Shown here: one piece after another, positions 13,626 to 29,532 of the stretch
Layout of the letters: each line of letters begins with the position of its first letter
Position numbering within the stretch: the stretch's first letter is position 1
NCBI GenBank assembly: GCA_021732085.1
Contig: JAKFVQ010000003.1
Span: 1 to 64,000 of the forward strand
DNA length: 64,000 nucleotides
Direction of reading: 5' to 3'
From: Candidatus Obscuribacterales bacterium
GTDB lineage: Bacteria > Cyanobacteriota > Vampirovibrionia > Obscuribacterales > Obscuribacteraceae
The notes under the pieces: generated by a model
What the model saw: only the letters and a program-made list of their open reading frames with translations
Database searches by the model: none
What the model was told of the DNA's origin: nothing
Made by a program: the position numbers and the translations under genes

Positions 13626-16256
13626 GTGTGCCACAAAACTAGAGAAGAGGCCCCAGGAAGAGTCCTCAGCATTTTAACCCAGAAACCCAAATTCGCCAGC
13701 AGAAGGTGCTTCAATAATTCGGTGGGGTTCTGGCATAATGTGGTGGGGGGACACGCTTTGCGACTGCTGCTTCTTGTATTTGTTTTAGTGGCTGTGCTGG
13801 GTGAGCTGACCTTTGGCTGGTTCATTTTTCAGTCCTATGAAAAAAGCAAAAGCCTGGATGCAAGGTGTAAGGTGCTTCAGGATATTGTCAGGCAGCGCGA
13901 GATAATAGGGCTGCGGGACGTCAGGCAATTTGTTAATCCGTCACTCTGGGCAGCGTTACAACAGAAGTTGCCGCAAGATCCAGCAGTGCGCGAACGAATC
14001 CATACGTGGATTAATACGGATTTGCAGATTTACAAGGATGTTCTGAAAACCGATCCGTCTACTAGCGATTATGTCAAAGATCTTGAGCAGGCGTTTGCAA
14101 AGTGGATGGGCGTAACCGACGGCATATTCGGAAGGCTGGAATCGCTTGAATGGACTGCCGACAAGAAATCAAAAGTACTTTCCGACGGCGAAATCGGTCA
14201 GCTTTGGCGACGTTATAACAACGAGACGGCTCGGCTCGAAAATGTTTTGTACGACAAGAGATCAGGCGTTGCGGATCGCTTCTTCTTCCCGGCCGAATAT
14301 GTGCAGGAATGGCAACGAAGCAATGAACGACTTGATGATTTGCTAATTGGACTGTTGGCGTTCAATACAGCGATTGCTCTTCTTGCAGCTTGTTTCTTGC
14401 AGTGGGGACCGCAAAAACTACTCAAGGATCTAAACGATAACACCAGTTTCTTCCAGAAATGTTTGATGCTTGTTTGGACCCCGATTTTGTTCGAATTGAT
14501 CTTTATTGCCGTTCTGGCAAGTATGTTCTATCACAATAATGCTGAATTGATTAGCGGTCAAAAGTGGTTCTTCTTAGATAAAAACACGAAGACGCTGGTT
14601 GATGAGCTGATCGAGATGAATGGGGCCGTTGCTCCGTCGGAGTCCAAGCGTCAGCGAATCACCGACATAATAGAAACTCTGCGCCTTCGAACAGAAAATC
14701 GTCCGCAGCAGGTCGCGGCGCTGGATGAAATTGAAAAAGCGCTTAAATCGGTGTACGCATTCTATCCACAATTCCAGGACGCGGCTGAAAAGAAAAATGC
14801 TGATGAACAGGCGCGACTACAACAGATATTTGTCACCGATCTTACGCGGGCTGCAATTTATGCTCAGTATTCAAAGCCCGAGATAGGTCAGCAAAAACTT
14901 GTACAGGGCAGGCAGGAAGCACTAAAGCACGAGATTGAAGTAAGCAGGAACATGGAAATTGGTCTTGCTCTTTCAATATTGTTCAATTTGGCATTGGCAC
15001 TATTGTTGAATTCGTACTTCAACAAATCTACTTCGAAACGGCTTGATGTGATCACGTCAAATATAGGACGATTGGCTGAGCGAAAGCCATTACTCCCAGA
15101 GTTGAAGGGCGAGGATGAATTCGCCAGACTGGACAATACGTTCCACCAAATGTCGGACCTATTGTTGGAGACGATAAAGAAGGAACGCTCAGCGATCGAT
15201 AATGCCGGAGATGTAATCTGCTCTCTTGAGGCGGACTTGAAAATTGCACTTGTGAATCCGGCCTGCACTTCCACATGGGCTCGCACTGAAGATGCATTGA
15301 TCGGTCACGCGCTCTCAGAGTTTGTGCAATCAACGGATCGCAAAATCACGACTGAGAAAATCGAGCTTGCTCGAAAGGAAAATGGGATAAGTTCGTTCGA
15401 GAATCGAATTGACACTCCAGACGGACAAGTACTGGATATGCTCTGGTCCGTGCAATGGTCTGAACCAGAGCAGCAGTATTTTTGTGTGGTCCAGGACATA
15501 ACAGAGAAAAAACAGATCGAGCGCCTCAAACAAGAATTTATCGCGATGGTGAGCCATGATCTGCGGACGCCATTAACTGCGTCGACCATGTTCTTGGAAC
15601 TCCTAGAGGTTGGTGTTTACGGCGAACTTTCCGAGCAAGGAAGCCAATCGCTGGTGTCATGCACGAAAGAAGTTCAGGAACTGATCGCGCTGATTAAAGA
15701 CCTTCTCGATATTGAAAGGCTCGAATCCGGCAAGATTGATTTTGAATTCAGCGCCGTTTCTGTTGAGGACATTGTTGATGATGCGGTGGACACACTGAAA
15801 CCGCACATAAAGAGCAAAAATTTGAAGGTGGAGAAGAACTACGGCGAAGATGGATTGGTTGGCGATCAGGATCGCTTGACACAAGCATTCATTTCGCAAT
15901 TAGCCAACGCCGTGAATTTAGCTATCAGTGGTAGCCAGATAAAAATTGACGCCACTAATATTGACGATTTGATCCATTTCAAGATTTCGTTTATGCCAGA
16001 AGATCCATCTGTGGATTTTGATGATGGAGTTTTTGAAAAGTATAAAAAGAACCGCTTGAAGAATCCCTCAGGAACTGGTGGTACGCGGCTTGGCTTGCCG
16101 CTATCGATGGCGATAGTACATCGGCATGGTGGAGCGGTTCAGGCTGAGAGAAAATTGGAGCAAGGCAAGCCCGTATTCATCTTGTGCATGGTTGTGCCTG
16201 TGACCCGTAAATCACCGGCGCAATCAGTCGCTATTAAAATTCCGGTGACGGCATGA
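13626..16256 (+). CDS. Sensor histidine kinase with duplicated sensor and degenerate ATP domain
   Basis: Up to 876 residues. Two sensor units follow one another, each a membrane segment, an extracytoplasmic stretch and a second membrane segment. The second unit begins with the PILFELIF signature also found at the N termini of the kinases at 16267 and 26975. HAMP, PAS and HisKA domains follow. The H-box is intact (MVSHDLRTPL; His codon 15555-15557). In the ATPase domain the N-box keeps NA but the G1 DxGxG box is replaced by a Pro/Asp/Glu-rich stretch (about 15990-16030), while a GTGG-type G2 remains. It may therefore be phosphorylated by another kinase. The start is uncertain: the frame opens with GTG at 13626, and GTGs at 13722 and 13740 sit just before the first membrane segment. 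A gap of ten bases leads to the next kinase. Confidence 0.88.
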   Translation: MCHKTREEAPGRVLSILTQKPKFASRRCFNNSVGFWHNVVGGHALRLLLLVFVLVAVLGELTFGWFIFQSYEKSKSLDARCKVLQDIVRQREIIGLRDVRQFVNPSLWAALQQKLPQDPAVRERIHTWINTDLQIYKDVLKTDPSTSDYVKDLEQAFAKWMGVTDGIFGRLESLEWTADKKSKVLSDGEIGQLWRRYNNETARLENVLYDKRSGVADRFFFPAEYVQEWQRSNERLDDLLIGLLAFNTAIALLAACFLQWGPQKLLKDLNDNTSFFQKCLMLVWTPILFELIFIAVLASMFYHNNAELISGQKWFFLDKNTKTLVDELIEMNGAVAPSESKRQRITDIIETLRLRTENRPQQVAALDEIEKALKSVYAFYPQFQDAAEKKNADEQARLQQIFVTDLTRAAIYAQYSKPEIGQQKLVQGRQEALKHEIEVSRNMEIGLALSILFNLALALLLNSYFNKSTSKRLDVITSNIGRLAERKPLLPELKGEDEFARLDNTFHQMSDLLLETIKKERSAIDNAGDVICSLEADLKIALVNPACTSTWARTEDALIGHALSEFVQSTDRKITTEKIELARKENGISSFENRIDTPDGQVLDMLWSVQWSEPEQQYFCVVQDITEKKQIERLKQEFIAMVSHDLRTPLTASTMFLELLEVGVYGELSEQGSQSLVSCTKEVQELIALIKDLLDIERLESGKIDFEFSAVSVEDIVDDAVDTLKPHIKSKNLKVEKNYGEDGLVGDQDRLTQAFISQLANAVNLAISGSQIKIDATNIDDLIHFKISFMPEDPSVDFDDGVFEKYKKNRLKNPSGTGGTRLGLPLSMAIVHRHGGAVQAERKLEQGKPVFILCMVVPVTRKSPAQSVAIKIPVTA

Positions 16257-16266
16257 GGATTATTAG

Positions 16267-18204
16267 ATGCTGAATCGTCTGACAATCTCTCAAAAAGGAC
16301 TGCTGCTTCTTGCAGTGCCGATTGCCTTTGAAATAATCCTGGTAGGAACATTGCTCGCCATTCTGTTTCCTATGCAAAATGCCCTGCAGCAATCATCGCA
16401 ATACGTCAGCAAAACAAATGCTTTAAAACAATTGGCTAACGATATGAACATTGTTAATGCTGCACTGCTTAATGGCATGCGCAGCCGAATCTACGGTATC
16501 CATGATTTTGTTGAGCGTCCCGCTGGAATGAGCTTCGATGCATTTGAAAAGCGTGCGGATGTGATGATAAACGATGCTTTCAATGCTGAGCCGCGTGCAT
16601 TCCTTGCCATTCCGCTGAAAAAATATAAGCTATGGACAGATTCAACGCAAGAGCATCTCGCTGATTATGGCAAGGCGACAAGCAGCGCCGCTGCGACGAG
16701 CCAACCGAACAATTATAAGAAGCGCTTTGATGAATTCCAGGCGTTAGTTTTGAAAGCTCAGTATGCCGCTGGCGCAGGACGCTTAGCACAAGCGAGCCAG
16801 GCATCAGCAGAGGCGTATAAAACGCTGGCAAAACTGTACGTTGACGTGAATAGTGAGTTGACCAAACTTTCTGCCCAGGACAAGCAGATACGCGAGGACG
16901 CATTGGGTCAGGATGAGTCTCGATTGCAAGCAGTTTCTCAACAAGTGACGATTGTGCTGGTGGCTGGTGTTCTGATCAATATAATTCTGGCGGTCATGCT
17001 GGCAATTGTATTTAGCAAAGTCGCTTCCGGTCGCCTTTTGTTCTTGATGGACAACACAAAGCGATTGACGGAAGGTACCGAACTCAACCCCACGCTGGCT
17101 GGCAGTGATGAGCTTGCCTTATTGGATAAGTCATTTCACGATATGGCGGTGCGTCTGGAAACATCTCGTCGCAAAGAACAGGCAATTATCCAGAATGCAT
17201 CCGAGGTCTTATGCTCTCTTGATGCCGATTGGAGTTTCGTGGATGCCAATCCTGCCGCGCAGAGAGTCATCGGTTTTGCGCCTGAGGAGCTTCGTGGTAA
17301 GCGGCTTGAACAGTTTCTTTCGGAGTCTGATTGGAATGCGACAAGGGTATGTCTAGCAGAGGCGAAATTTAACTCTAATCCGATCAACTTTGAGAATGAA
17401 TTGATTGTTAGCAATGGTGCAAGAATACCCATGCTCTGGTCTGTGAAATGGAACCAGGAGCAAGGAAAGGTATTTTGCCTGGCCCGAGATATCACGGAGC
17501 GAAAGCGTTTGGAGAGAATGCGCCAGGAATTCGTTAATATGGTTAGTTCTGACCTGCGAACACCGCTTTCCCACCTGGATTCTTTTCTCGGCAAATTGAC
17601 TGAAGGTGGTTTCGGCGATCTAAACAAGGATGGCAGCGATCAAGCACGGAAGTCCATGAGAAATAACAAGCGCTTACTTGAGCTGGTGAATGATCTATTG
17701 AATCTCGATAAGTTGAGTTCAGGGCAGATGGATCTGAAGATCTCCGAATGCAGTGCAATTGATCTCTCGCAGCGTTCTATTGATGCTGTGGTGGGCTTTG
17801 CTGGTAAGGTCGGAATTAAACTTGTTAATAATGCAGAAGACGTGAATCTCGATTGCGATGGCGATCGAGTTGTGCAAGTACTCGTTAATCTTATCGGTAA
17901 CTCGGTGAAATTTTCTCCCAAGGGTAGCCAGGTCATATGCTGGGCAACCCCTGATTCTGATCACATGATCAAGTTCAGCGTGCAGGACTTTGGAAGAGGC
18001 ATACCCGAGGCAATGTGCAAGTCCGTCTTCGAGAAGTTCAAGCAGGTTTCGAAAGCAGATGCGACAGAGAAGGGCGGAAGCGGATTAGGACTGGCAATTT
18101 GCAAGACCATCGTCGAATGCCATGGCGGCGAGATTGGCGTGGATAGTGAGCTTGGTAAGGGCAGCACATTTTGGTTCCGGATTCCTCAGCGCCAGAAAGC
18201 TTGA
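16267..18204 (+). CDS. Histidine kinase homologue with Ser in place of the H-box His
   Basis: 645 residues: membrane segment 1 (about 10-32), extracytoplasmic part, membrane segment 2 (about 225-248), HAMP, PAS (about 305-418), HisKA and HATPase. The H-box reads MVSSDLRTPL: residue 428, where the phosphoacceptor His belongs, is Ser (codon TCT, 17548-17550). The catalytic domain is complete: N-box NLIGNSVKFSP, G1 DFGRGI, G2 GGSGLGLA. It should bind ATP but cannot autophosphorylate at the usual site. The neighbouring kinase has the opposite defect, so a heterodimer in which this protein phosphorylates its neighbour is a natural reading. ATG follows TGAGG by eight bases. No response regulator is adjacent. 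Confidence 0.92.
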   Translation: MLNRLTISQKGLLLLAVPIAFEIILVGTLLAILFPMQNALQQSSQYVSKTNALKQLANDMNIVNAALLNGMRSRIYGIHDFVERPAGMSFDAFEKRADVMINDAFNAEPRAFLAIPLKKYKLWTDSTQEHLADYGKATSSAAATSQPNNYKKRFDEFQALVLKAQYAAGAGRLAQASQASAEAYKTLAKLYVDVNSELTKLSAQDKQIREDALGQDESRLQAVSQQVTIVLVAGVLINIILAVMLAIVFSKVASGRLLFLMDNTKRLTEGTELNPTLAGSDELALLDKSFHDMAVRLETSRRKEQAIIQNASEVLCSLDADWSFVDANPAAQRVIGFAPEELRGKRLEQFLSESDWNATRVCLAEAKFNSNPINFENELIVSNGARIPMLWSVKWNQEQGKVFCLARDITERKRLERMRQEFVNMVSSDLRTPLSHLDSFLGKLTEGGFGDLNKDGSDQARKSMRNNKRLLELVNDLLNLDKLSSGQMDLKISECSAIDLSQRSIDAVVGFAGKVGIKLVNNAEDVNLDCDGDRVVQVLVNLIGNSVKFSPKGSQVICWATPDSDHMIKFSVQDFGRGIPEAMCKSVFEKFKQVSKADATEKGGSGLGLAICKTIVECHGGEIGVDSELGKGSTFWFRIPQRQKA

Positions 18205-19901: not shown

Positions 19902-21437
19902 CTACCGGCACAACGCCTTCAGCGAATCGGAGATCGCCGTGGATTCTTGCGTGTGTCCGCGCTCGAAGCTGCGCATGTAGATGATGTTCTTATCGAACTT
20001 CCACCTGTCCAGTAAGTATATCTCCATGCTGCCGCACTTCGGACAAATGTCCTGCGATAAGAACGGATATAAGGAAATCCAGTTGTTATTTCCTGCATTG
20101 AGGATCAGCTGACCCTTCGGAAAGCCGCGATTCAACCGAAGTTCATCTTGCCGCAATGCAGGATGGTCACCTGTCACTTTCAAGCAGATCATTTTGATCG
20201 TACCTGTAGGTAACACGTCGATTGCGCGCACGACTCTTATTGGATAGTCGCACAGGAATGCTGTGTGTTCGATAGCCGTTTTCAACAACTCTGCCAGTCT
20301 GACAGTTTCTTTCTCGATTTGAGATTCAGCTGTCGGACCACGGTGGTGCGCGAAGTCGTTGCGCGCCCTCACTAGCTGTTCGATAGCTTTGCCAAAGCCG
20401 CGCTCTACCAATTCGACCTTTAATTCAAGAATGGATTTTGCTAGCGGAATGTCTTTCGTCGATGTGTCTTTCCAAATTGCAGAACACTTACGAATCAATT
20501 CCCGCCAGTGTCCAACGGACACTCCTGTCATGATTGAATTCTTCAGAGCTAATACAATTGAAGGATCATTTGGGGCTGTGATGGAGAGCGATAAACCCGC
20601 GATTAAGGCTAGCAGATTCTCCACTAGACGCAGCTGCTCTTTGTACTTCTCTGATGCGTCGGTGATGCACTCAAGTGTGCGGTAAGGATTTGCAATCGGA
20701 TAGGGATATTCCGTCGCCAAACGCTGTTGAAAATCAGGAACAGGAGCCTGGATAAGTTCCGCGCCTGAATGCTTAATTATTCTTCTTGCTTTGGGCTGCG
20801 TTTCGCTAGTTGCGCCGGCTGCTGGAGCCGAAGCCGAAGCCGCAGGAGCATTCAATCCTGCCCAGTCATTCGATAGCGAATTCTTGAAATGAGCCAGCGT
20901 TTGGATCGTGTTCAGCTTGCTGATTGCTTCACTCAACTTATCTGCCTCATGCGGATCTGCAAACTCCCAGTAAAGTGAGAGCATCTGATAAACGCGTTTT
21001 ATTGAAGTTGGATTGAATGAGATGCAGCAGTCATACTTAGCATCGGCTGCGCCAGCTTCAGATGTGTGCCCGTAAATAATCACCGACAATTCCTTGCTCA
21101 TTGCCATGAAACAAAATTCGTCGAGCGGACCTTTTCGGTGCTCTGAGAAATTTGAGCAAGCAAGGGCCGATTGATTCAATATGTTCATCATTGAACGCGG
21201 TGGGAGAATCCAAGAAGCATCGTCTGCCGACCAATAAATCAATACGGATTGATTGCGCAGAACATCGTGCTCGCTTATGGTCTTTTCGATCTTGCGCAAT
21301 AAGGGGAGAAGTTCAGCACGTTTCACCGCGACGTTTGCGGTGCCTGGCGGCAAATCTGATGCTTGTTCCAGGAGCTGCGTGATGTTCTGCGCTCTGTCAT
21401 CATTTACGAAGTTGGAGTTCTGATTCCAGGTCTGCAT
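19902..21437 (-). CDS. HEPN-motif and zinc-knuckle protein, partner of helicase-nuclease
   Basis: 511 residues from the ATG at 21437, chosen over a TTG at 21458 because AAAGGAG precedes it by nine bases. The N-terminal 200 residues are a mixed fold with no recognised motif, followed by an Ala/Pro-rich linker (about 195-225). A helical region then carries RNDFAHHRG: Arg359-x4-His364 with a polar residue after Arg fits the HEPN RNase motif (Rx4-6H). Near the C terminus there is a CPKCG zinc knuckle. The ATG follows the stop of the helicase gene by a single base, so the two are translationally coupled. HEPN proteins often act as toxins or RNases in defence. The fold is inferred from the motif only; a DUF4145-like non-catalytic domain is an alternative. 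Confidence 0.65.
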   Translation of the reverse strand: MQTWNQNSNFVNDDRAQNITQLLEQASDLPPGTANVAVKRAELLPLLRKIEKTISEHDVLRNQSVLIYWSADDASWILPPRSMMNILNQSALACSNFSEHRKGPLDEFCFMAMSKELSVIIYGHTSEAGAADAKYDCCISFNPTSIKRVYQMLSLYWEFADPHEADKLSEAISKLNTIQTLAHFKNSLSNDWAGLNAPAASASAPAAGATSETQPKARRIIKHSGAELIQAPVPDFQQRLATEYPYPIANPYRTLECITDASEKYKEQLRLVENLLALIAGLSLSITAPNDPSIVLALKNSIMTGVSVGHWRELIRKCSAIWKDTSTKDIPLAKSILELKVELVERGFGKAIEQLVRARNDFAHHRGPTAESQIEKETVRLAELLKTAIEHTAFLCDYPIRVVRAIDVLPTGTIKMICLKVTGDHPALRQDELRLNRGFPKGQLILNAGNNNWISLYPFLSQDICPKCGSMEIYLLDRWKFDKNIIYMRSFERGHTQESTAISDSLKALCR

Positions 21438-21438
21438 T

Positions 21439-24400
21439 CTAAGATTCTCCTTTAGCAAATGCCTGACTTATGGCTTCGCGTAAAAGTTGCTTTTCACGCT
21501 CGTTCTTTTGATACCACTCGCGCGAGCTGATTCTATGTATTCTCGGGATCGATCTGCTAAGTACGGTTTGTCGCCACAGTTCTCGATGCTTCGCGCTGGC
21601 AAGCAACCTGTGCTGCGGACCGTCGCATTCTATGCCGATTCCGAAAAGTCCGGTCTTGGGGTTCTCGACCGCTATGTCGATGTCGAATGCATCATTCGCT
21701 TCTTTTTCGCGCATCACTAATTCGTATCCGAGCCCGGAAATGTAGGATGCCACGTCAGCGATAAAGGGATCTTCAACTTTAGCTTCCAAACGTGCTCGAG
21801 CGTCGTCGCTGGCTGCTAATCGGCCGAGGCTTCTTTCTGCCTCAACTAAGGAGCCGTTGCTGACCTTCTGTGCATAATCCATGTAGGCTTGTACATAATC
21901 TCGCGGAATGTTTGGGTTGCCATTGTGTCTGAGATATTCGGAGATCTTTTCGGTCGGCAGTGAAGTGACCAGAATTACTTTTCGCTTCGCTCTTGTGATG
22001 GCAACATTGAGGCGTCGTTCTCCTCCATCTTGGCCTAGTTTTCCGAAGTTGCGACGGAAACTTCCTGTCGGGTCATAGCCAAATGTAGTGGAGAAGATGA
22101 TGATGTCGCGCTCGTCGCCTTGAACATTCTCAAGGTTCTTTACGAAGAAACCGAGGTCTTCTCCATCCTCTGTTCGTTTGGACTCTTCTTCGAACACGCG
22201 CTTGAAATAATCATCTCTTGCAGCCAGATCCTCAAGTACTTCTTCGATTAGCGCTGCTTGTTTTAGATTGAACGTTACTACGCCAACCGTCGGTCGCTTG
22301 CCTGGTGACATTAGCCAGAGACCTTTAAGCACCTCAGCTACTTTCAATGCTTCGCCACGGTTTACTTGCTTGTCGTAAACCGAATTGACGTTGATCACTT
22401 CGATAGGGCGAACCGTCTTCACGACATTGGCGGGATGCTTACTCGGGATGCTCAATGTGCCCGAATAAAATGCCGAGTTTGAAAATGCGATAAGCTCGCG
22501 GAACTCAGAGCGGTAGTGAATCTGCAAGGAGCGTGATGGCAGTACAGAGCTTGCCAAATTTAACAGGTCCGGGCAATCTTTGATTTCGCGACGGTTGAGT
22601 GATTCCTCTATGCGGTCGCGCTCGGCTTGCGGAAGCGTGTCATCGATCTCTTCCTCATCATTGTAAGCATCGTCGTTTTCAGCGCGTGAAGCGAAGAAAT
22701 TCGGTGGAGGCATCTGCTTTTCGTCACCGCTAACGATTGCACGTTTTGCGCGGAACAATGTCGGCAAAGCGTATTCAACTAATAGCTGCGAAGCTTCGTC
22801 GAAAATTACTGCGTCGAATAAACCAGCTGTTAGTGGAAGTAAGCGACTTGCTGTTTCCGGATTCATCAACCAGATTGGGCGTAAGCTCATCAAGCCGAGC
22901 TTGGTGCCAGTGGCAACCAGCTCTCGTAAGCGCCGCGCCCTAGCACCGCTAAGTCTGGTAATATCTTCCCATTTCTTGGGAGCGGCAACGGAAGCTTCGG
23001 GGCTGGGCTCAGCTAATATGCGTCGGTTTAGGTTTCGAAGTTGCTCCTCGGCCTCAGCAAGAGATTTCACCTTATAGTTGATCTCTTCCTTTGAGATTGT
23101 GAGCACTGGTTCGTTGGTTTCGAGCGTGCTCTTCCATGCAAGGCAAGCTTCTCTGCGAATAACTCTGCGTACTCTCTTTAATAGATCGATTCCGCCAGCT
23201 TTCGGCTCGAACTGCATGGTTGGATTCTGTGATGCTTCACCGCCGAGAGTTCCCCAAACTGATGCATCGAGCGCAACTTTAAGCGCATCGCCTCGGGCAA
23301 AACCCTGGGCTGAGGTCAGCTGCGCTTCATGCTCGCGAAGCGCAGCAAAAACTTCAAGCGCATCGCGGCTCAAAGACTGCGCACGCAGTCTGAATTCTTG
23401 GAATGGAATTATGGTTCCAAGGAAACGATGCATGTGACGCGATGCTTCGATGTTACCTTTGCCGGACGAAATCACTTTCTTCTGGGCTTGCAGCCACTCA
23501 TCATCAAACCACTGTCCAAGGCGATTTAGGCAATTTAGACTTTCGGTTTTAACAGCGTGACGTTTTATCACACCTTTCAAAACTGTGCTGAATTCATCAA
23601 AAGCGGTTGATTCGGATCGCTTCGCAAATTCACGTGCCTGGTATGGCAGCGGACACGAACGAAGTTTTTGCGAAAGGTCTGCTACAGGAGCTAGCTGATT
23701 GAGAAGTATCGAGATTGCATTCTGAAGATGATAAAGATCAAGTGGTTGAGCGGATGTTTCCAGTCCAAGTGTGTTGTTGATCTTCTCAACTAGTTGTCTA
23801 TGCGGGCGAAGCTCACGTTCCAATATAGCGGCGCGCAAAAATTCGTGCATCGTTTTCTCATTGTTCCGTAATTTATAGGAACGCAAAATGTTGCCGAGAC
23901 GATACCGATTCAAGGCGCGCAACGGATTAATTTGATTAAGAAGCCCACCTTCTGAAAGTGCCGAACTTGTGATCCATATATATTTTCTGATCACAGCATT
24001 CGGCAAAGTTGCCAGAGTGTCGAACAGCTGATGTGAATGATCGAACTTGTTGAGTTTGCTCAAAGCCTCTGAAGCTTGGGTCAAAGAGTTGATCGCTTCG
24101 CCGCCCACGGAGCTCTTCGTTTCCGCATCGGGGAAGAAGTGTCCAGCCCAGCGAGATAAATTCAAGCGTACTTCCTTTGGAATTTCGCGAATGTATTCTT
24201 CATTCTCTTTGAGCCAAGCTACATAAACAGACACATCATCCACATCGGCAGAGCGTGGGAATTCCGCCAGCGTCTTGAATCGCTGCTCCTCAGCTTTCAT
24301 GAAGCGCGTGAATTCAGTAGTGATCATCTGCGCGTCGGCATGATCGGGGGCGAAAACCTTGAGATCCTGCAACGGCGAAATTTCGTATTTCGATTCCAAC

Positions 24401-26463
24401 CAAAGATGTGCGATCGAAACGCATTCTTCAACAAGTGCTAATGAGCTTGCGTGATCATATTCTCTAAGATTGGCTCTTAGGCTCGGAATCTTGATTACGA
24501 ATGATTCGGCTGATTCGATCTCTATGAGTTCGGAAAGTATGCTGCGATAGCTGAGCCCGATCGTTTCATCAACATGATGCAGTGTATTGTGATACTTGTT
24601 CAACTCCATTTCTAAAGTTTGAATACGCGAGATTAAATTCGCACGTTCCTTTCGCAGCAACGTAACAGGAGCGCTTTGTCCTGCATTTCTCTCGTCTAGT
24701 TGTTCTCGTAGTGCCCTTACTACGGATTGCCGATCTTTTGTAATGTCGGTTATGAAAAATAGCCTGCGACCAAGACCTTCTGCTTTCAAACGTCGCTCGA
24801 CCACACTGAGAGCGGCTTGCTTTTGGCAGACCACCAGTACTGTTTCATTGCGTGCAACACAATCAGCGATGATATTGACGATTGTCTGGCTCTTACCAGT
24901 TCCGGGTGGACCTTCTATATGAAGCCCCTTTGATTTGCGTGACTGTTGGACCGCTGCTTCCTGGCTTGGATCTGCTGTAATCACACCGAAATCGTCCATA
25001 TCAAAAGCTGCGCCAACGGCTAATTCTTCGGCTGCTACTTCGTTGTCTTCGCCATCAGCATCATTTTGGTCTGCGACGCGCAAGGCAATTTCAAGTGCTG
25101 TACCTGCCATTGGCAAACCGGAGATATTGCGCAAGTCATCTGCAACTGCTTTGCCTGAGAAGTCACAATGGAAGAGTGCTGCTGAGTATGACAAGACTGG
25201 TTTTTCAAGTTCGGATACATATTCTTTTCCTGGTACTTGAACAAGCTCTTCGTCATAGCATTTGCAAAATTTGTTGAATGTATCGACTATTTCGATGGCA
25301 GAAACTTCTTCCTTACTTGTGATTTGAGTGAGCGCTTCATTCCATTTTTCCTCATCAGCTGGGCTCAGTCCGAGGATTCCTGGCAATGCCGGATTCAAAC
25401 GAACTTCATCACTGTCGCAGCTTGCCAGTGTTACTTTAGCTTTGCTTCCGAGCGGTGCTTCCACTCTGGCTGGAAAAAGTAGTACCGGCGCCACACGCAG
25501 TTTCGTTTTTGTATCGTCGTTACCGCGAGTCCTCATTACGATAAATGGGAAGCCCAGAAACAAACCATGCTTGCCTGTATCTCTTTTGAATGTTGTGCTC
25601 TTTTGAACGAGATTTCGAATTCGTCGCTCAAGCATTGGGACGGTGCTAAGTAAGACTGGATCGACTTCGAAGTCGGAGCTGCTAGGCGCCAACAAATGTT
25701 CGAGAATTTCTTGCGCATGATGTTTTGCGCTGGAGAGTTCCGTGAGATCAAGGGTGCCTGAATTGCGTGATATGCGAAGACAAACCAGCGGACCCTGGTT
25801 TATAGTGGCCATGATGCTGCGTTCGCCGAACTTTAGAATTTCGGTTACGTACTGCTGTTTTGGTAGCCTTACCCAGAGTTCTTTGGGCACCGATAGCAAT
25901 ACCAGGCATCGCTCCAGTGGCATTACCCGTTCTAAACGATAAGTGTCGGCAAGATTGTCGATCGCTTCAATTCCGCACCTTGCAAAACCCTCGATTCGGC
26001 TGTCTATTTCGTCATAAATTTGGGTGCGTGATAAGGAAAGAAACGGATTTACAGCCTCCGGATCGAACTTGACCAGTCTGCCCTGCGCGGACTTCTTTCC
26101 CCTTTTGCCGAAACAAATGGTGCCGAACTGTGCCGCTTTCTTCAAAAGCTGCTCAGCTGGTAGAAAATTCTCCGGACCAGCCGCAAGCAAAATTATCAGA
26201 TCTTCGTCGGTTAGATTCGGGCAATCGAGAAGGGACTGCACGATGTCGTTTTCGGAAGCTGGATATTGAGCGCGCTTTTGCACCCACTCTGCGTCGAGTT
26301 CTTCTCGCGTCTTGGAGAAAAGTATTTTTGAAAGGAGGCTTTCATCAATTGCAAGTTTGGCATCACGAATCCTCTTTTGTACGGATTCCGTGCGTTCGCT
26401 CAATCCGAGAAACGCTTCTTGTGTGTTACCAGCGCTAAGGTTGGATTCACCAATTTCAGCCAT
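21439..26463 (-). CDS. SF1 helicase with C-terminal Vsr/PD-(D/E)xK-like nuclease domain
   Basis: 1674 residues. Helicase core of the DUF4011/COG1112 type split by a long helical insert: Walker A GPPGTGKSQT at 518-527 (Lys524), Walker B FDEAS with Asp1222-Glu1223, motif III GDEKQMPPP shortly after, and motif VI NVAITRAKRK near 1485. The C-terminal 110 residues resemble the MTES_1575/Vsr-like nuclease: Asp1594 and Asp1596 in AFDIDIAV, Glu1612 in IGIECDGPQH, then a conserved helix with Trp and Arg. Such proteins occur in anti-phage and anti-plasmid systems and probably remodel and cut nucleic acid. The HEPN-like gene follows after one base. Long and intact, no frameshift. Confidence 0.9.
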   Translation of the reverse strand: MAEIGESNLSAGNTQEAFLGLSERTESVQKRIRDAKLAIDESLLSKILFSKTREELDAEWVQKRAQYPASENDIVQSLLDCPNLTDEDLIILLAAGPENFLPAEQLLKKAAQFGTICFGKRGKKSAQGRLVKFDPEAVNPFLSLSRTQIYDEIDSRIEGFARCGIEAIDNLADTYRLERVMPLERCLVLLSVPKELWVRLPKQQYVTEILKFGERSIMATINQGPLVCLRISRNSGTLDLTELSSAKHHAQEILEHLLAPSSSDFEVDPVLLSTVPMLERRIRNLVQKSTTFKRDTGKHGLFLGFPFIVMRTRGNDDTKTKLRVAPVLLFPARVEAPLGSKAKVTLASCDSDEVRLNPALPGILGLSPADEEKWNEALTQITSKEEVSAIEIVDTFNKFCKCYDEELVQVPGKEYVSELEKPVLSYSAALFHCDFSGKAVADDLRNISGLPMAGTALEIALRVADQNDADGEDNEVAAEELAVGAAFDMDDFGVITADPSQEAAVQQSRKSKGLHIEGPPGTGKSQTIVNIIADCVARNETVLVVCQKQAALSVVERRLKAEGLGRRLFFITDITKDRQSVVRALREQLDERNAGQSAPVTLLRKERANLISRIQTLEMELNKYHNTLHHVDETIGLSYRSILSELIEIESAESFVIKIPSLRANLREYDHASSLALVEECVSIAHLWLESKYEISPLQDLKVFAPDHADAQMITTEFTRFMKAEEQRFKTLAEFPRSADVDDVSVYVAWLKENEEYIREIPKEVRLNLSRWAGHFFPDAETKSSVGGEAINSLTQASEALSKLNKFDHSHQLFDTLATLPNAVIRKYIWITSSALSEGGLLNQINPLRALNRYRLGNILRSYKLRNNEKTMHEFLRAAILERELRPHRQLVEKINNTLGLETSAQPLDLYHLQNAISILLNQLAPVADLSQKLRSCPLPYQAREFAKRSESTAFDEFSTVLKGVIKRHAVKTESLNCLNRLGQWFDDEWLQAQKKVISSGKGNIEASRHMHRFLGTIIPFQEFRLRAQSLSRDALEVFAALREHEAQLTSAQGFARGDALKVALDASVWGTLGGEASQNPTMQFEPKAGGIDLLKRVRRVIRREACLAWKSTLETNEPVLTISKEEINYKVKSLAEAEEQLRNLNRRILAEPSPEASVAAPKKWEDITRLSGARARRLRELVATGTKLGLMSLRPIWLMNPETASRLLPLTAGLFDAVIFDEASQLLVEYALPTLFRAKRAIVSGDEKQMPPPNFFASRAENDDAYNDEEEIDDTLPQAERDRIEESLNRREIKDCPDLLNLASSVLPSRSLQIHYRSEFRELIAFSNSAFYSGTLSIPSKHPANVVKTVRPIEVINVNSVYDKQVNRGEALKVAEVLKGLWLMSPGKRPTVGVVTFNLKQAALIEEVLEDLAARDDYFKRVFEEESKRTEDGEDLGFFVKNLENVQGDERDIIIFSTTFGYDPTGSFRRNFGKLGQDGGERRLNVAITRAKRKVILVTSLPTEKISEYLRHNGNPNIPRDYVQAYMDYAQKVSNGSLVEAERSLGRLAASDDARARLEAKVEDPFIADVASYISGLGYELVMREKEANDAFDIDIAVENPKTGLFGIGIECDGPQHRLLASAKHRELWRQTVLSRSIPRIHRISSREWYQKNEREKQLLREAISQAFAKGES

Positions 26464-26728: not shown

Positions 26729-26974
26729 AGCGACGCATTTTTCGTAGCACTAAGTGTCTCCTGGATGTCTGTCACCCTAATAAGTTCGGAACGTCAGAAT
26801 CTGATAAAGCCGTGTCTGGGTGTATGGGGACCATAAGGTACAGCTCTGGGGTCTGCGACTCTTGGGCTCAGGGGCGGGAATGCGAAAAGTGGGCATAATA
26901 TTCGGGTCAGATAGCTGTTTTGTGTCGGATAAAGCTGGCTGATCCGTGAGTGACATTTGGTCGTACTGCAAGCA

Positions 26975-29170
26975 ATGCAAGTAGAACTGAAAATCAAACA
27001 CAAAGGGCTGATTCTGGTTGCGGTCCCGCTTTTGTTCGAACTCGTTTTCCTGGCAGTTCTTTCGGGGCTTCTCAGGCAGGCCGATTATAAAACCTGGCAA
27101 GAGATGCATTCGAAGACTGTTGTGTACGAATCCAGCGCTTTGTCTAGACTCTTCCATGATGCCGGCATCGCGATGGGTGGCTACGCTCTGACAAAGAGCC
27201 CCTTATTTCGCGAGCGTTTCGATTCCATAGTCTCTTCAATTCCCAGGGAATTTAAGCATCTTCAAAAATTGGTGGGACGTAATTCCTCTCAGAAAGGCAG
27301 CTTAAAGCGTCTTGAGACTTATACAAACTCTGGATTGCATCTCTTGTCTACTGCTCGCGATGCTATCGAAATCGGCGGAGAAGGTGTTTCGCGTGTTCGC
27401 AGCCTCTACAGCGAGATGAAAGGTGTTTCGAAGAACATCAGCACTGAGCTCGACAATCTGACCGCCGAAAGCAGGAAAATCGAGGAAGATGGTCCGAATG
27501 CGAGAAAACAGTCCGACCAGATGGTTCGTGTCTTTCTTGCAATTGGTGTTCTGTTCAATATAGGTCTAGCCTTCGTTCTTTCGTACTTCTTTAGTAATGG
27601 AATTACGAAAAGACTTTTCATTCTTACGGATAATGCAAATCGCCTGGCACGCGCCGAGCAGCTTTCAGATCCAATTAAAGGCACTGACGAAATAGCTCAT
27701 CTCGATGCCGTATTTCATAACATGGCTGATGCTTTGGCTGAAGCAAGCCGGAAAGAAAGAGCAATCGTCGAGAATGCTGCCGATGTTATTTGCTCAATCG
27801 ATGCCGACAATAAATTCACTAAAATTTCTCCTGCATGTAAGAAACTTTGGGGATATGAACCTTCTGAGTTAATCGGTACGCGCTATTTGAACCTGGTGAT
27901 AAGCGATGATGTAGAAGAGACTGCAATTGCAACACGTGCTCTCAGAAAAGGGCAGCACACCGCTTCGTTCGAAACCAGAACCTATCGAAAAGATAGGTCA
28001 ATCGTAACTGTTCTCTGGTCCGCATTCTGGTCACCGACAGAGAATTCTATGTTCTGTGTCGCGCACGATATTACTGAGCGCAAATTGATTGAAGAGGCAT
28101 TGAAGGAGAGCGAGCGGCGAGTCAGGTCCATAATTGAAAACACTCTTGTGTCTTTGATTGTGATTGATCGTTTCGGCATGATTGAATTAGTCAATCCGCA
28201 AACGGAAAAATCATTTGGCTATCCAGCCGAGGCTGTCCTTGATCAAAACATCGGTATCTTGTTTCCGCAATTCATGTCGGCCGAGGATAACTTCATTGAA
28301 GAATTGTTCGCGCAAGCCTCAGGCCGGATAGCTGATTTAGAAATGATGCGAGCCGATGGAGAACTGTTTCCTGTTGAATTTTCGCTTTCCCAACTCGAGA
28401 CTAACGAGGGAACCCGTTTCATTGCAAACATTCTCGATGTTTCCGAAAGACAAGAGTTCGAAAAGTTAAAGCGCGAATTCGTCTCGACCGTGAGCCATGA
28501 ATTGCGAACGCCTCTTACTTCAATTCGTGGCTCTTTGACATTGTTAAATACCGGCATGCTGGGCAATCTCAATGAGAAGGGTGAGCGGATGGTGAGTATC
28601 GCTGAACGCAATACAATTCGCTTGATCAACTTAATCAACGACATCTTGGATGTTGAGCGTTTGGCTTCAGGTAGAGTGGAAATGCAATTTGATAATACAG
28701 AAGTTTCCAGCATCATCGAACGTTCTGTCGAATCCGTGCGTTCATTTGCGGATCAGCACTCAGTCAAACTTGAAGTGGGTGATCTGCGACCGCTCACTCG
28801 CGTCTATGCTGACGGCGATCGAATAATTCAAGTCGTGATCAACCTTTTGTCGAACGCAGTGAAATTCTCGCCCAAAGATAGCACCGTAACTCTTAACATA
28901 AAAGAAGAGACCGAGTGGGTGGAGCTGCAAGTTATCGATCGCGGGCGCGGTATTCCGGAAAAATATAAGGCTCTTGTTTTTGAACGCTTTCAACAAGTCG
29001 AAGTCTCGGATGCGAAGCGAAAGGGTGGCACAGGCCTGGGTCTTGCAATCTGCAAAGGAATTATTGAGCAGCATAAAGGTTCTATAGGCGTTGAAAGTGA
29101 AGAAGGGAAAGGCAGCACTTTCTGGTTCCGTCTTCCGAAAGCTCCTCAAGGTGAGGCTGTGATGGCATGA
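26975..29170 (+). CDS. Sensor histidine kinase, intact, with two PAS domains
   Basis: 731 residues from ATG 26975, preferred to TTG 26957 because it places the start as in the paralogue at 16267. Layout: membrane segment with the PLLFELVF signature, extracytoplasmic domain, membrane segment 2 (about 184-207), HAMP, PAS 1 (about 265-385), PAS 2 (about 385-490), HisKA with His508 in TVSHELRTPL, and HATPase with NLLSNAVKFSP, DRGRGI and GGTGLGLA. It is the complete member of a three-kinase paralogous set in this window. Its stop overlaps the ATG of the response regulator gene (ATGA), so that protein is the likely phosphate acceptor. Confidence 0.95.
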   Translation: MQVELKIKHKGLILVAVPLLFELVFLAVLSGLLRQADYKTWQEMHSKTVVYESSALSRLFHDAGIAMGGYALTKSPLFRERFDSIVSSIPREFKHLQKLVGRNSSQKGSLKRLETYTNSGLHLLSTARDAIEIGGEGVSRVRSLYSEMKGVSKNISTELDNLTAESRKIEEDGPNARKQSDQMVRVFLAIGVLFNIGLAFVLSYFFSNGITKRLFILTDNANRLARAEQLSDPIKGTDEIAHLDAVFHNMADALAEASRKERAIVENAADVICSIDADNKFTKISPACKKLWGYEPSELIGTRYLNLVISDDVEETAIATRALRKGQHTASFETRTYRKDRSIVTVLWSAFWSPTENSMFCVAHDITERKLIEEALKESERRVRSIIENTLVSLIVIDRFGMIELVNPQTEKSFGYPAEAVLDQNIGILFPQFMSAEDNFIEELFAQASGRIADLEMMRADGELFPVEFSLSQLETNEGTRFIANILDVSERQEFEKLKREFVSTVSHELRTPLTSIRGSLTLLNTGMLGNLNEKGERMVSIAERNTIRLINLINDILDVERLASGRVEMQFDNTEVSSIIERSVESVRSFADQHSVKLEVGDLRPLTRVYADGDRIIQVVINLLSNAVKFSPKDSTVTLNIKEETEWVELQVIDRGRGIPEKYKALVFERFQQVEVSDAKRKGGTGLGLAICKGIIEQHKGSIGVESEEGKGSTFWFRLPKAPQGEAVMA

Positions 29171-29532
29171 AGATTCTAATCATTGATGATGAGGAAGACA
29201 TTCGCTACGTTTGCGGAAGCAGCCTGGAATTAATCGGCGGCGTTGACGTCTTCGAAGCTGATGGCGGCCATCAGGGAATTAATCTTGCCGCGTCAGAAAA
29301 GCCCGACGCCATCCTTCTGGACATGATCATGCCGGACATGGATGGTGCTGCCACAATTACTGCATTAAAGAAGAATCCTGAGACAGCCTCAATTCCTGTA
29401 ATTTTCCTTACAACCAGAACTTTAAGCCTAGATTTTGCGAGAATGAAGAGTCTAGGGGCCGCTGGCTGGATAGTAAAACCGTTTGATCCAATGACTATTA
29501 CTGACCAGATCAAAGAGATTATAAATAAGTGA
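29167..29532 (+). CDS. CheY-like single-domain response regulator
   Basis: 121 residues, a receiver domain only. Acidic pair DDEED (7-11), phosphoacceptor Asp52 in LLDMIMPDMDG, Thr82/83 and Lys104 in VKPFDP are all in place. There is no DNA-binding or output domain, so it must act by protein contact or pass phosphate on. The gene overlaps the kinase gene by four bases upstream and the next gene by four bases downstream, forming a tight three-gene operon. Confidence 0.95.
   Translation: MKILIIDDEEDIRYVCGSSLELIGGVDVFEADGGHQGINLAASEKPDAILLDMIMPDMDGAATITALKKNPETASIPVIFLTTRTLSLDFARMKSLGAAGWIVKPFDPMTITDQIKEIINK

Follow-up and report, generated by a model that had tools for sequence, protein, structure and literature searches.

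Kinases that are split over two proteins are already known in nature. In group A Streptococcus, the adjacent and co-transcribed sensor kinases FasB and FasC form a heterodimer and no homodimers; H246 of FasC is required whilst the FasC kinase domain is dispensable, the ATPase being supplied by FasB (PMC12675982, 2025). CheA3/CheA4 of Rhodobacter sphaeroides carry the acceptor and the ATPase on two proteins, neither of which autophosphorylates alone (PMC3591291). Complementation has also been engineered: EnvZ H243A and a G2 mutant complement each other in vitro as a heterodimer (PMC4734776), whereas the cis kinase MtrB shows no such complementation (PMC5956149).

Here we describe two adjacent sensor kinase genes, K1 and K2, in a 64,000-nucleotide stretch of DNA (the window) from Candidatus Obscuribacterales bacterium. 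As with FasB/FasC, two neighbouring sensor kinases are involved and we infer that the His comes from one and the ATPase from the other. However, no lost His has been described in FasB, and the Fas kinases are six-TM proteins, encoded only as separate genes in an operon that has its own response regulator. Here the HisKA domains are accompanied by HAMP and PAS domains, both partners are lesioned, genomes carry several independent pairs each and some forms are fused. CheA3/CheA4 lack whole domains and have no membrane sensor, whereas K1 and K2 are full-length sensor kinases with motif-level lesions. The EnvZ mutants (PMC4734776, citing Yang and Inouye 1991) have the same two lesions in a HisKA kinase and act in trans, but were engineered and are not natural. 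Like DivL and RetS (PMC12189002), the present proteins have the HisKA fold without canonical activity and would act through another kinase; however, DivL and RetS modulate an otherwise complete kinase (CckA and GacS), whereas here the partner is also incomplete. What is new is therefore not the two-protein kinase but its repeated evolution, the fused form and the survival of intact and half-way stages. The opposite orders of the halves, alongside lesions in both partners and several pairs per genome, further set this family apart. Obligate two-part kinases produced by mutual loss have usually been shown only with engineered mutants; here they have apparently arisen naturally, and several times. 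We found no description of the complementary-lesion pattern in these organisms in the literature searched, which excluded most subscription journals.

The K1/K2 locus

K1 and K2 each score above the Pfam cut-offs for HisKA and HATPase_c. K1 matches HisKA at 8.4e-16 and HATPase_c with just 27.4 bits; the HATPase_c match of K2 is 3.8e-27. Neither protein combines the His with intact N, G1 and G2 boxes, but the pair jointly does (Table 1), placing the acceptor His on one protein and the intact ATPase on the other, as judged by sequence only. The initial annotation had claimed that K1 keeps its H-box His and has lost its G1 box, that K2 has Ser428 in place of the His and keeps its N, G1 and G2 boxes, that the genes are ten bases apart and that a third family member is intact; all of these claims held.

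Table 1. Positions in the window of the kinase pair, its motifs and other genes
Feature	Position	Strand	Description
K1	13626..16256	+	Two sensor regions, HAMP, PAS, HisKA with His644, degenerate HATPase
K1 H box, SHDLRTP	15552..15572	+	Phospho-acceptor His644 intact, codon CAT 15555-15557
K1 G1-box position	15990..16004	+	FMPED, not DxGxG; model loop also without G1
K1 G2 box, GGTRLGLPLS	16077..16106	+	One of three glycines substituted
K2	16267..18204	+	Sensor, HAMP, PAS, HisKA with His replaced by Ser428, HATPase intact
K2 H box, SSDLRTP	17545..17565	+	Ser428 codon TCT 17548-17550
K2 N, G1, F and G2 boxes	17887..18102	+	All intact; N box NLIGNSVKFS 17887-17916, G1 DFGRG within 17974-18012, G2 GGSGLGL 18073-18102
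518-aa gene	19902..21458	-	Unknown family
1674-aa SF1 helicase	21439..26463	-	DUF4011-like part, C-terminal MTES_1575 nuclease
Kinase 3	26957..29170	+	Intact paralogue; reference, outside the pair
Receiver-domain protein adjoining kinase 3	29167..29532	+	Response_reg 2.3e-23; no evidence of serving the pair

The G1 position of K1 was set by alignment to DRGRG of kinase 3. Damage to the K1 ATPase is broader than this box, extending to part of the N box (SQLANAVN, in which the first Asn and the Lys are gone) and to one G2 glycine. A hidden G1 box in K1 would have refuted the initial annotation, and none was found by profile alignment, ortholog alignment or in an AlphaFold model of the PAS-HisKA-ATPase region (pLDDT 80.6). 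The model retains the ATPase fold, with no DxGxG in the loop after strand 317-324 and a disordered lid, and has RetS and DivL among its structural neighbours. K1 carries two sensor regions with four predicted TM helices, and its true start is likely to be a GTG at ~13737, because the ortholog in relative G002 has an in-frame TAG upstream. Given the ten-base gap and an AGGA ribosome-binding-like motif lying over the K1 stop codon, translation of the two genes is probably coupled, an inference from sequence alone. No response regulator adjoins the pair at this locus.

Full-length orthologs of K1 and K2 were found only in three of 50 family genomes, namely the window's own (G000), G002 and G023, where they are always adjacent and in the same order. 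Both lesions are present in the G002 pair (70% identity for K1 and 72% for K2), which is flanked by genes matching the window in size and order, and in the more divergent G023 pair (33% and 41%). Ser is kept at the His position in all three K2 orthologs. G002 also encodes a second, paralogous pair in the same order, with Ile at this position. A K2-type Ser kinase occurring alone was the other observation that would have counted against the initial annotation; none without a K1 neighbour was found among the 50 family genomes. The G023 K2 gene (L051:9825-11513) contains one in-frame TAA at the N box, after which the frame, G1 and G2 are intact; the stop may have arisen by nonsense mutation recently or may reflect an error of assembly.

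Both genes are under purifying selection, since fourfold-degenerate sites are saturated relative to G002 (65–67% different) while divergence at second codon positions is low (15–16%). This saturation of synonymous sites made Yang-Nielsen and Nei-Gojobori Ka/Ks mostly unusable. Compared with G002, the DHp of K1 is 93% identical and its degenerate ATPase 70%; for K2 the values are 94% and 89%.

Complementary lesions across the genome and the family

The initial annotation missed both the family-wide spread of the pattern and its occurrence inside single fused proteins. We scored 62 kinase modules of G000, a draft metagenome-type assembly (4.8 Mb, 70% complete), for the His and eight ATPase motif positions, the score being a proxy for activity. 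Eight modules lack the His yet have a perfect ATPase score, and all eight are either fused (L055, L056, L057, L058 and L101) or directly adjacent (the window pair, L080 and L084) to a His-bearing module. ATPase scores of 6 or less were found in 7/8 partners of His-less modules compared with 2/45 other His-bearing modules (Fisher p = 1.8e-6, uncorrected for shared ancestry), and at a cut-off of 5 the partners still number 6/8 (p = 3e-5). In the partners of L101 (6/8) and L080 (7/8) the ATPase damage is only mild. The L070 tandem pair, slightly over our 60-base distance limit, has both modules intact. One further module, L091:2611-4173 (G000:C14), has an intact His, damaged G1 and G2 boxes and no adjacent partner; the adjoining gene encodes what we take, from reading its sequence, to be an unrelated NFACT-family-like protein. 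ATPase-degraded modules can thus exist without an adjacent partner, and we infer that any ATP-supplying partner of L091 is encoded elsewhere. L082 is a milder solo case of ATPase damage with the His retained.

We extended the scoring to 163 non-redundant modules from G000 and its relatives, whose genomes are also drafts. Apart from the solo protein L111, the sole module with both lesions, 29/29 modules whose His is substituted have a full ATPase score (8/8), and 29/29 with an ATPase score of 5/8 or below retain the His. The co-variation of His and ATPase motifs that the initial annotation had proposed to check therefore holds across the family. Ten different residues (S, Q, F, R, Y, G, I, T, N or E) replace the His in an otherwise unchanged context, Ser being the commonest (13/30).

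Complementary lesions also recur within single polypeptides. We counted 28 fused double kinases for which the contig covers both modules: 21 complementary, five intact (four in G023 and one in G001), one half-way and one reversed. In none do both lesions fall in one module. Module 1 lacks the His and module 2 has a ruined ATPase in all 21 complementary fusions. In the half-way case (L066, G023) the module 1 His is the sole loss. In the reversed case (L206/L257, G018) the ATPase of module 1 is damaged, whilst module 2 has an intact ATPase and a His within SHGMRT. The kinase CrdS needs an acidic residue beside the His for activity, and even E to G abolishes it (PMC3510030). As SHGMRT lacks this residue, the module 2 His of L206/L257 is, by analogy with CrdS, probably not phosphorylated. 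Four genera of the family have complementary fusions; the reversed form belongs to a fifth. No fused double kinase was found outside G000 in 386 phylum-level genomes at the threshold used, nor any full-length His-less module in a scan of named genomes (80 loci, many phyla); both searches reach fairly close relatives only.

Each module conserves what its partner has lost. Within the 21 complementary fusions, ATPase sequences share a mean pairwise identity of 0.50 for module 1 vs 0.25 for module 2, and sequences of the DHp/HisKA region one of 0.39 vs 0.54; the ATPases of the five intact fusions stand at 0.58 and 0.57. Moreover, a phosphatase position (T or N; PMC3510030) lies four residues past the His; it is T, S or N in 21/21 acceptor modules, and T in only 4/21 of their partners. 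From this contrast we infer that the acceptor module alone faces the response regulator. Separately, an acidic residue beside the lost His is retained in 21/21 His-less fused modules (Asp in 20 and Glu in one; e.g. L056:3822-7652). This remains unexplained, as its known role is in phosphorylating the His that is now lost.

In a maximum-likelihood tree of the HAMP-PAS-DHp region, from which the H box was removed, nearly all lesioned modules of fused kinases cluster by module, and tandem K1 and K2 fall in separate clades among single kinases. An AU test rejects a single clade for tandem and fused modules (p-AU 0.031 for the His-less and 8e-5 for the ATPase-dead modules). These results support separate origins of the tandem and fused versions. 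Given that L257 is reversed and that the positions of L080 and L084 are uncertain, the origins number two at minimum, both well supported, and about six at most; placement of L080, L084 and L101 is limited by long branches. We also considered whether the window pair arose by splitting of a fused double kinase; neither the tree nor the AU tests support this.

Inferred trans phosphorylation and rival explanations

We consider it likely that K1 and K2 constitute one asymmetric kinase in which the ATPase of K2 phosphorylates the His of K1 in trans. The sequences show the lesions and how they complement each other, their recurrence, the reciprocal constraint and the conservation of K1 and K2; physical pairing, phosphotransfer in trans and the output regulator are all inferred, without biochemistry, and the obligate heterodimer suggested by the initial annotation is thus supported as an inference only, in the absence of phosphotransfer data. 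In this model the HisKA helices of K1 and K2 would dimerise and the sole working ATP site, that of K2, would act on His644. A response regulator would receive the phosphoryl group from K1 alone, which would probably also remove it. Homodimers of either protein would be dead, so that activity would need the pair. The same arrangement would have evolved several times in the family, mostly after fusion of two kinase genes: once partnership was enforced, one His and the opposite ATPase would become dispensable and decay.

The argument for trans rests on which lesions survive. Under trans phosphorylation, complementary losses leave one working half-site and a double loss in one module leaves none; under cis phosphorylation the reverse applies. 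Therefore, the near-exclusive survival of complementary lesions points to trans phosphorylation, although this is an inference and the handedness is undetermined. By sequence, the nearest solved structures include VicK-like ones and that of HK853. HK853 phosphorylates in cis, and it is the handedness of the hairpin loop that sets cis or trans. The presence of HK853 among the nearest solved relatives counts against the joint-kinase model, as do the lack of an adjoining regulator, the TAA in the G023 K2 gene, the solo kinase L091 and the unexplained retention of an acidic residue beside the lost His. For an AlphaFold model of the fused pair (pLDDT 80, pTM 0.50), Foldseek returned only single kinases. 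Natural fused homologues enforce proximity of the two modules; for K1 and K2 there are no binding data.

On balance we lean towards a bolder reading, in which enforced partnerships, whether by fusion or tight operon, repeatedly converted symmetric dimers to an obligately asymmetric state, and in which the intact, half-way, reversed and complete stages are all extant. The lesion pattern would then report trans phosphorylation, and each pair would integrate two sensors into one His. Ancestral-like and intermediate states in living relatives allow a direct test of the change from symmetric to asymmetric dimer. With this system, cis and trans phosphorylation can also be tested against each other using sequence only, and a two-signal requirement for one output becomes testable.

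The rival that survives best, which we nevertheless regard as unlikely, is that K2 is an ATP-binding pseudokinase acting only as an allosteric regulator in the manner of DivL or RetS, while a different, intact kinase (kinase 3, for example) phosphorylates the His of K1. Partner-regulating pseudo-kinases are known (PMC12189002), the genes for kinase 3 and a receiver protein are close by, and the solo ATPase-degraded L091 exists. However, in 21/21 complementary fusions the His-less module keeps a constrained 8/8 ATPase while that of the acceptor decays, which fits service to the attached His. If the role were regulation only, strict pairing of one His with one ATPase in repeated independent origins would not be predicted. 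Moreover, a DivL-type regulator needs a complete kinase partner, and K1, without a G1 box, is not one.

It is very unlikely that K2 acts as a Ser kinase or that it uses Ser428 as its phosphosite instead of a His. Ser is the commonest replacement and is constant in the three K2 orthologs; however, some of the ten residues that fill this position family-wide cannot be phosphorylated, and we rejected Ser as a new phosphosite on these grounds. We likewise rejected, as very unlikely, decay of both genes or sequencing error: the assembly is an incomplete draft and one ortholog has a stop codon, but in independent assemblies the frames stay open and both lesions persist, with the codon-position divergence and the identities to G002 in the K1 DHp and K2 ATPase given above.

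Atypical modules and neighbouring genes

Two proteins of G000 depart from the common builds. L111:1516-3828 (G000:C11) is a membrane PAS protein with the kinase fold, in which the His is replaced by Gln and the ATPase motifs are gone, making it a complete pseudo-kinase. L101:4655-7765 (G000:C32) is a 1037-aa double kinase of different build, whose first HisKA helix has diverged beyond recognition with its ATPase intact; its second module is near intact. Within the window, between the pair and kinase 3, the gene of unknown family overlaps and adjoins the SF1 helicase gene, and the helicase has matches to PDC-S37 (1.1e-141), which is a candidate defence family in PADLOC, and to Hhe.
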